Positions 47,505 to 48,646 of a stretch of 64,000 nt of DNA are shown here, piece after piece. This DNA comes from Parasphaerochaeta coccoides DSM 17374 (GTDB lineage: Bacteria > Spirochaetota > Spirochaetia > Sphaerochaetales > Sphaerochaetaceae), in assembly GCF_000208385.1 (NCBI RefSeq), contig NC_015436.1:1240001-1304000 (forward strand), in the 5' to 3' direction. The stretch's first letter is position 1. Each line of letters starts with the position of its first letter. The notes under the pieces were generated by a model. It saw only the letters and a program-made list of their open reading frames with translations, did not search any database and was not told where the DNA came from. A program made the translations under genes and the position numbers.

Positions 47505-47872
47505 GACAACTCCCTGTTTTTCAAATCGGCATGTCCGGAGAAGATTGCGCAACATTGACCGACAGATGGAAAACGTTGCATGCCCGCATCCCTGACAAAC
47601 AGCTTAACTATAACCATATTGAGAATAAAATCAATATTTTTCAAGGGAATAGGGGTATTATGGAGACAATTCATCAGGAAAGCGTCGCAAAAAAACAAGA
47701 TGCTCATGACTCTGTTTTTTTATGGGAAATAATGTGAATGAAAGAATATTATTGCACATTCAAACCATATGATAACGCCACATCCCCCATGGCATACCCA
47801 TGACATAAAAAAAGAGTACCGGCTCGCGCCGATACTCCCTGCCAGAAACTATTTTATGACCACGCCCGGACA
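47505..47872. other. nfnA upstream region and hsp20 3' region, no gene seen
   Basis: AT-rich. It holds a weak dyad ATTGA-N8-TCAAT at about 47619 that could be part of nfnA control, and the hsp20 terminator listed separately. Short open frames here lack ribosome binding sites. Confidence 0.5.
47807..47837 (-). terminator. Rho-independent terminator of hsp20
   Basis: Minus strand: GAGTATCGGC, loop GCGA, GCCGGTACTC (10-bp stem, one G-T pair), then TTTTTTTATG. Confidence 0.9.
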
Positions 47873-48319: not shown

Positions 48320-48409
48320 GATGTACCTCCTGCGATACTATTTCATTTTTGTTTTCAGTTTTTGTTTTCAATTCATTCCATCGGACTCATCGACCGACGC
48401 ACATATACT

Positions 48410-48426
48410 TGCAAGAGGCGTGCCAA
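48410..48426 (-). promoter_or_regulatory. Sigma-54 promoter upstream of hsp20
   Basis: Minus strand 48426-48410 reads TTGGCACGCCTCTTGCA, matching the consensus TGGCACG-N4-TTGCW at every position, with the required GG-N10-GC spacing. Transcription should start about 12 bases downstream of the GC, giving an ~80-base leader. The nearest gene on the minus strand is hsp20. Confidence 0.75.
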
Positions 48427-48541
48427 TTTCCGATACATTCATTCAATCATGGATGTAAGTATTTATACTTTATATAATTATTTTAGTTTTATATTTTTTG
48501 GGAAGACAATCATCCGTGCGGAAATACATATAAATAAGGAA

Positions 48542-48577
48542 GAAAAAGAGCTGTTGGGTCAAAATGCCCTCCAGCTC
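48542..48577 (-). terminator. Terminator of the AraC-family gene
   Basis: Minus strand: GAGCTG..GGG, loop, CCC..CAGCTC followed by TTTTTC; about 70 bases after the stop codon. Confidence 0.7.
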
Positions 48578-48595
48578 TGTAAACCTCGTCTTTGA

Positions 48596-48612
48596 TGTAT
48601 CATTTTGATACA
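48596..48612. promoter_or_regulatory. Perfect dyad TGTATCA-TTT-TGATACA, possible enhancer site
   Basis: A 7-3-7 perfect palindrome roughly 190-210 bases upstream of the predicted hsp20 start, within the range where sigma-54 activators bind. It lies between the araC stop and its terminator, so it could instead be an mRNA structure. Confidence 0.4.
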
Positions 48613-48646
48613 ATGTCGTGCGGCAAAATGACCCAATTTGTTCCAA

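Follow-up and report, generated by a model that had tools for sequence, protein, structure and literature searches.

Sigma-54 control of a small heat-shock gene is known from E. coli, where ibpB has a reported sigma-54 promoter; there, sigma-54 supplements the sigma-32 control of a single operon, whereas the spirochetal case described below is class-wide and comes with a missing HrcA. Among the activators of sigma-54, those of the NorR/FhlA type carry a GAF domain, and the NorR site has a core resembling GTCA-N3-TGAC. Rrp2 of Borrelia reportedly acts independently of an enhancer, as worded in the title of a 2009 study by Blevins. In B. burgdorferi, rpoS is the sole known sigma-54 gene and Rrp2 the only activator (PMC11109971). 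Treponema denticola has a PAS kinase, Hpk2, that senses oxygen, and an Rrp2 that is a predicted sigma-54 activator and was called unstudied (PMC12070737); in co-culture, T. denticola hsp20 was upregulated together with grpE, dnaK, and clpB (PMC3914990).

Here, we analysed a stretch of 64,000 nt from Parasphaerochaeta coccoides, referred to as the window, together with the genome and its relatives. The sequence comparisons make it likely that hsp20 and a sigma-factor gene are the two direct targets of an Rrp2-sigma-54 stress module. In this module, sigma-54 RNA polymerase would transcribe hsp20 from a -24/-12 site and would be switched on by a response-regulator activator, which would bind twin palindromes further upstream and reach the polymerase through DNA looping. 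Most likely, this activator is the Rrp2-type regulator listed in Table 1, and the same protein, acting from similar paired sites, would turn on the sigma gene as well. A kinase signal would then yield the small chaperone directly and, by way of the second sigma factor, a wider stress response. Since the T. denticola kinase senses oxygen, the inducing signal may not be heat, and oxygen or metabolism could take its place.

Table 1. Features of the hsp20 locus (positions in the window) and of the regulator and sigma-factor region (positions in the genome)
Feature	Position	Strand	Remarks
hsp20, Hsp20/alpha-crystallin small heat-shock protein, 148 aa	47873..48319	minus	ORF and Pfam HSP20 (E 1.6e-24)
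Shine-Dalgarno AGGAGG of hsp20	48326..48331	minus	read directly from the sequence
Sigma-54 -24/-12 element TTGGCACGCCTCTTGCA	48410..48426	minus	perfect 17-mer; predicted start ~48399
5' stem-loop of the leader (CGUCGG...CCGAUG)	48379..48399	minus	at the predicted RNA start; p 0.056 for this copy alone
Intrinsic terminator-like hairpin 3' of hsp20	47811..47840	minus	13-pair stem, then T run
Predicted activator site A, TGTATCA-TTT-TGATACA	48596..48612		perfect palindrome; same site type in relatives
Predicted activator site B, TGGGTCAAAATGCCCTC	48555..48571		imperfect copy, 41 bp from site A
Weaker third copy, TGGGTCATTTTGCCGCA (minus)	48619..48635		2 mismatches to the site consensus; role uncertain
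AtoC/NtrC-type response regulator	genome 733006-734385		predicted activator of hsp20
Partner kinase	genome 734342-735616
Group-2 (RpoS/RpoD-like) sigma-factor gene	genome 728660-729580		306 aa
Sigma-54 site before the sigma gene	genome 729569-729584

The hsp20 promoter and its conservation

A search of the genome for rpoN and an enhancer-binding protein, suggested as a check in the initial annotation, revealed both. The rpoN gene is intact, with an ORF of 501 aa (Sigma54_DBD, E 5.7e-51); a broken gene was ruled out, the flagged TGA being the terminal stop codon. Strong Pfam matches identified six sigma-54 activators, five of them with GAFTGA, namely an AtoC-like response regulator adjoining a kinase, a second NtrC-type regulator, a NorR/FhlA-like GAF protein adjoining dps and clpB, a PspF-like protein, a DhaR-like protein, and a sixth one without GAFTGA.

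The initial annotation had described a perfect -24/-12 element with GG-N10-GC spacing 5' of hsp20, placed to give a leader of about 80 bases, and both parts of this description hold. GG is found at 48424/48423 and GC at 48412/48411, and a start about 12 nt past the GC, near 48399, is predicted to leave a leader of ~80 nt. Within the window, the copy at hsp20 is the only perfect one of TGGCACGNNNNTTGC, and the genome pattern search (2,227,296 bp) revealed four perfect TGGCACGNNNNTTGCW 16-mers, two of them correctly oriented just 5' of stress genes (hsp20 and a Dps-type gene), one intergenic and 5' of a possible small RNA, and one within a gene. As a background, the P. coccoides genome contains 0.006 sigma-54 sites per 120 nt. 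With one mismatch allowed, the motif occurs 38 times genome-wide versus 30 times for the control, and a motif match alone is therefore moderate evidence only; it is through its position and conservation that we accept the hsp20 element as real.

Downstream of the element, the leader is predicted to begin with a stem-loop. Among the long hsp20 leaders of the family, 38 of 51 fold better than shuffles at p<=0.05, and their 5' stem-loop is kept in shape, not in sequence; it could stabilise the RNA. The terminator-like hairpin behind hsp20 indicates that the unit is probably monocistronic. A search of Rfam gave no match at the hsp20 locus.

Conservation in relatives had been named as a further check, and promoter and palindrome type both recur. 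Each of the family's 30 best hsp20 loci displays a TTGGCAC-type -24/-12 site, beginning 59-107 nt before the ATG; in a wider set, nearly all of the additional genera have a sigma-54 site shortly before the ATG of hsp20, and where relatives carry tandem hsp20 genes, a single site precedes the first gene. Among the GTDB loci, which overlap partly with the family genomes and are thus not a fully independent set, 79/80 revealed the site, versus 0.8% of dinucleotide-shuffled regions; the sole locus without it is labelled Aminicenantes. Neither TGGCA nor the G of GC varies among 98 non-identical hsp20 sites, and the C has a frequency of 0.98. Sites were scored by a hand-weighted consensus, and the counts overstate the independent evidence, as the genomes are related. 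The initial annotation considered sigma-54 control of a small heat-shock gene uncommon; this does not apply within the class Spirochaetia, where such control of hsp20, to judge from the promoter sequences, is the rule and not an oddity.

Paired upstream sites at hsp20 and at a sigma-factor gene

The perfect 7-3-7 palindrome noted earlier as the place where an activator would sit is exact and is centred 180 bp 5' of the -24 GG. Its reading as an activator site gains from conservation in relatives, but the site is not single: it is the better of two paired sites, the imperfect copy being centred 139 bp upstream of the same GG. Perfect 7-3-7 palindromes readily arise by chance (nine in the window versus ~4 expected), so that conservation was needed as support here, too. 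Across relatives, the consensus of the palindrome is TGTGTCA-N3-TGACACA, and the spacing of the pairs 5' of hsp20 peaks at 40-42 bp (59 pairs), while 40 bp is most frequent 5' of the sigma gene (27 pairs). A site with at most one mismatch was found at 53 of the 80 GTDB hsp20 loci, versus 0.4% of shuffles. Throughout 139 family genomes, 37/45 strict-core sites lie no more than 420 nt 5' of hsp20 or of the sigma gene, in comparison to 0/24 looser palindrome matches; some hsp20 units in relatives have no clear palindrome. In the P. coccoides genome, the top two matches to the palindrome pattern lie 5' of hsp20 and 5' of the 306-aa sigma factor. This first pattern was drawn partly from P. coccoides' own sites and is biased, which makes the count in the 139 family genomes and the shuffles of the loci the fairer tests; the regulon scan consisted of pattern searches and was not exhaustive. 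We are confident, on the basis of position and conservation, that hsp20 is a small heat-shock gene under a sigma-54 promoter with an upstream pair of predicted activator sites.

The putative second target encodes a protein with the sigma-factor regions 1.2, 2, 3, and 4, which is closest to the RpoD/RpoS models, though below their NCBIfam cut-offs. Copies of this gene in the family revealed an upstream sigma-54 site in 30 cases (one of them weak), usually together with paired sites. The P. coccoides gene product shares 34% identity with RpoS of a Borrelia-like genome, and both genes are linked to an Rrp2-type regulator. In many relatives, a small ORF of ~146-183 aa is located just 5' of the sigma gene.

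The Rrp2-type regulator and its rivals

Ten of 11 family stretches show kinase, response regulator, helicase, and sigma gene in this order, often with groES opposite; the eleventh stretch ended before the regulator. In three genomes of other classes, the regulator directly adjoins the sigma gene. In the Borrelia-like genome, the order holB-kinase-regulator is the same as here, and rpoS with TTGGCATGATTTTTGCA lies within ~7 kb. The P. coccoides regulator shows 58% identity to the Borrelia-like Rrp2 and 40% to the next paralogue. In the tree (FastTree support of 0.84-0.97 at the nodes that matter), it clusters with the regulators of the Borrelia-like genome, of a treponeme of 1,139,633 bp, and others, and the members of this clade share their DNA-recognition helix (GRKTLHRKL, GRKTLHNKI). 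By synteny and phylogeny, the response regulator is an orthologue of Borrelia Rrp2 and the kinase one of Hk2; most likely, both are also orthologous to Rrp2 and Hpk2 of Treponema denticola, treponeme-type genomes sharing an orthologous regulator and a sigma-54-type hsp20. Linkage, co-occurrence, and the conserved recognition helix point to this regulator as the protein that most likely binds the paired sites.

The presence of the regulator goes along with the type of hsp20 control. In a comparison of 79 genomes outside the family, with at least 410 bits for an orthologue and a score cut of 13 for a sigma-54-type promoter (13.4 in the other counts), 46 genomes contained an Rrp2 orthologue, and their hsp20 was sigma-54-type in 41, two of these loci being decayed Borrelia-like sites, CIRCE-type in none, and neither in five. 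Without an orthologue (n=33), the numbers were four, 21, and eight, respectively. The resulting Fisher p of 4e-12 is too small because of the relatedness of the genomes, and the association is confounded with deep phylogeny. CIRCE is a repressor operator near the start; as the initial annotation had observed, it is absent at hsp20, where the closest match within 380 nt upstream has nine mismatches, and a search of the P. coccoides genome for HrcA gave no match. HrcA/CIRCE control of hsp20 was ruled out by the missing operator and the missing HrcA. The 62 genomes positive for HrcA all lie outside the class Spirochaetia, and in other classes of the Spirochaetota, several hsp20 genes are preceded by a perfect CIRCE.

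A different reading would leave the promoter and the paired enhancers in place and have them bound by another activator, for instance the GAF protein of NorR/FhlA type or the other NtrC-type regulator. The genome offers six activators, and the GAF protein has NorR as its top NCBIfam match, albeit below the cut-off, adjoins the two stress genes dps and clpB, and could be matched with a palindrome core that resembles the core of the NorR site. However, the region between dps and the GAF gene holds different palindromes (ACCGAAATATCGGT), which makes the GAF activator less likely as the regulator of hsp20; its recognition helix differs, and the second target is linked to the Rrp2-type regulator instead. 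Borrelia, which has no activator other than Rrp2 (PMC11109971), also retains the linkage between the regulator and rpoS. We consider another activator unlikely at the paired sites and favour the Rrp2-type regulator, which carries a receiver domain and not the GAF domain of the NorR/FhlA type.

The palindromes might also serve as operators for some unrelated regulator, be it a repressor or an activator, with the sigma-54 promoter depending on an activator bound elsewhere. Repressor operators are typically palindromes of such length as well, and perfect 7-3-7 palindromes do arise by chance, but a pair located 139-180 bp upstream of the -24, with a spacing fixed at 40-42 bp and almost confined to two genes, each with a sigma-54 promoter, leaves this explanation with a very low probability. 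Even further from what the data suggest, and in our estimation close to negligible, is a chance match of the -24/-12 element with hsp20 transcribed from an ordinary sigma-70-type promoter. Two weak sigma-70-like sites do exist upstream of hsp20, and genome-wide the one-mismatch motif is hardly commoner than the control; still, the element is near-invariant in the 98 non-identical upstream regions and present in other families of the class, and a chance match of the motif was ruled out by this conservation.

Comparison with Borrelia and other sigma-54 loci

With the Rrp2-RpoN-RpoS cascade of Borrelia, P. coccoides shares the orthologous regulator and kinase, the order holB-HK-RR, and a sigma-54 promoter before a nearby RpoS-type sigma gene. 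Unlike Borrelia, it has predicted twin enhancer sites at the sigma gene and hsp20 as a putative second direct target; given the paired sites before its sigma gene, the P. coccoides system is a variant and not the enhancer-independent Borrelia form. Four Borrelia-like hsp20 loci revealed a decaying site, with TTGGTATGGTTTTTGCA in one, TTGGTATAGTTTTTGCA in another, a version lacking one base in a third, and none in the fourth, and the Borrelia-like genome showed no palindromes of this type upstream of hsp20 or rpoS. A class-wide ancestral Rrp2-sigma-54 module of the Spirochaetia, serving a chaperone and a sigma factor from twin enhancers 40-42 bp apart and replacing HrcA/CIRCE, is probable in our view; the Borrelia cascade would then be its reduced remnant, with the enhancers lost, the hsp20 promoter decayed, and the recognition helix nearly kept. 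Such a loss of ancestral sites before the sigma gene may be why Borrelia Rrp2 acts without enhancers. For the Rrp2 family of spirochetes, the comparison also provides a candidate binding site together with two putative direct targets, and it suggests a way in which spirochetes lacking HrcA may control a small heat-shock gene. In the open-licence literature, we found no earlier report of the paired sites or of hsp20 as a target of Rrp2, and nothing relevant on Sphaerochaeta and sigma 54 or on sigma 54 and hsp20.

Three further loci with sigma-54 sites were observed in the genome. A perfect site at 138407-138422 (minus) has no clear ORF downstream; it is followed by a stretch of ~100 nt ending in a strong hairpin with a T run (fold z -4.6), which had no match in Rfam and is a candidate for a sigma-54-dependent small RNA. 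At 260034-262191, the Dps-type gene with its perfect sigma-54 site is divergent from the GAF activator, which is followed by clpB, and the gap between the Dps-type gene and the activator contains repeated ACCGAAATATCGGT-like palindromes. At 161185-164259, the PspF-like activator is located between two pspA-like genes, each displaying an upstream sigma-54-like site.
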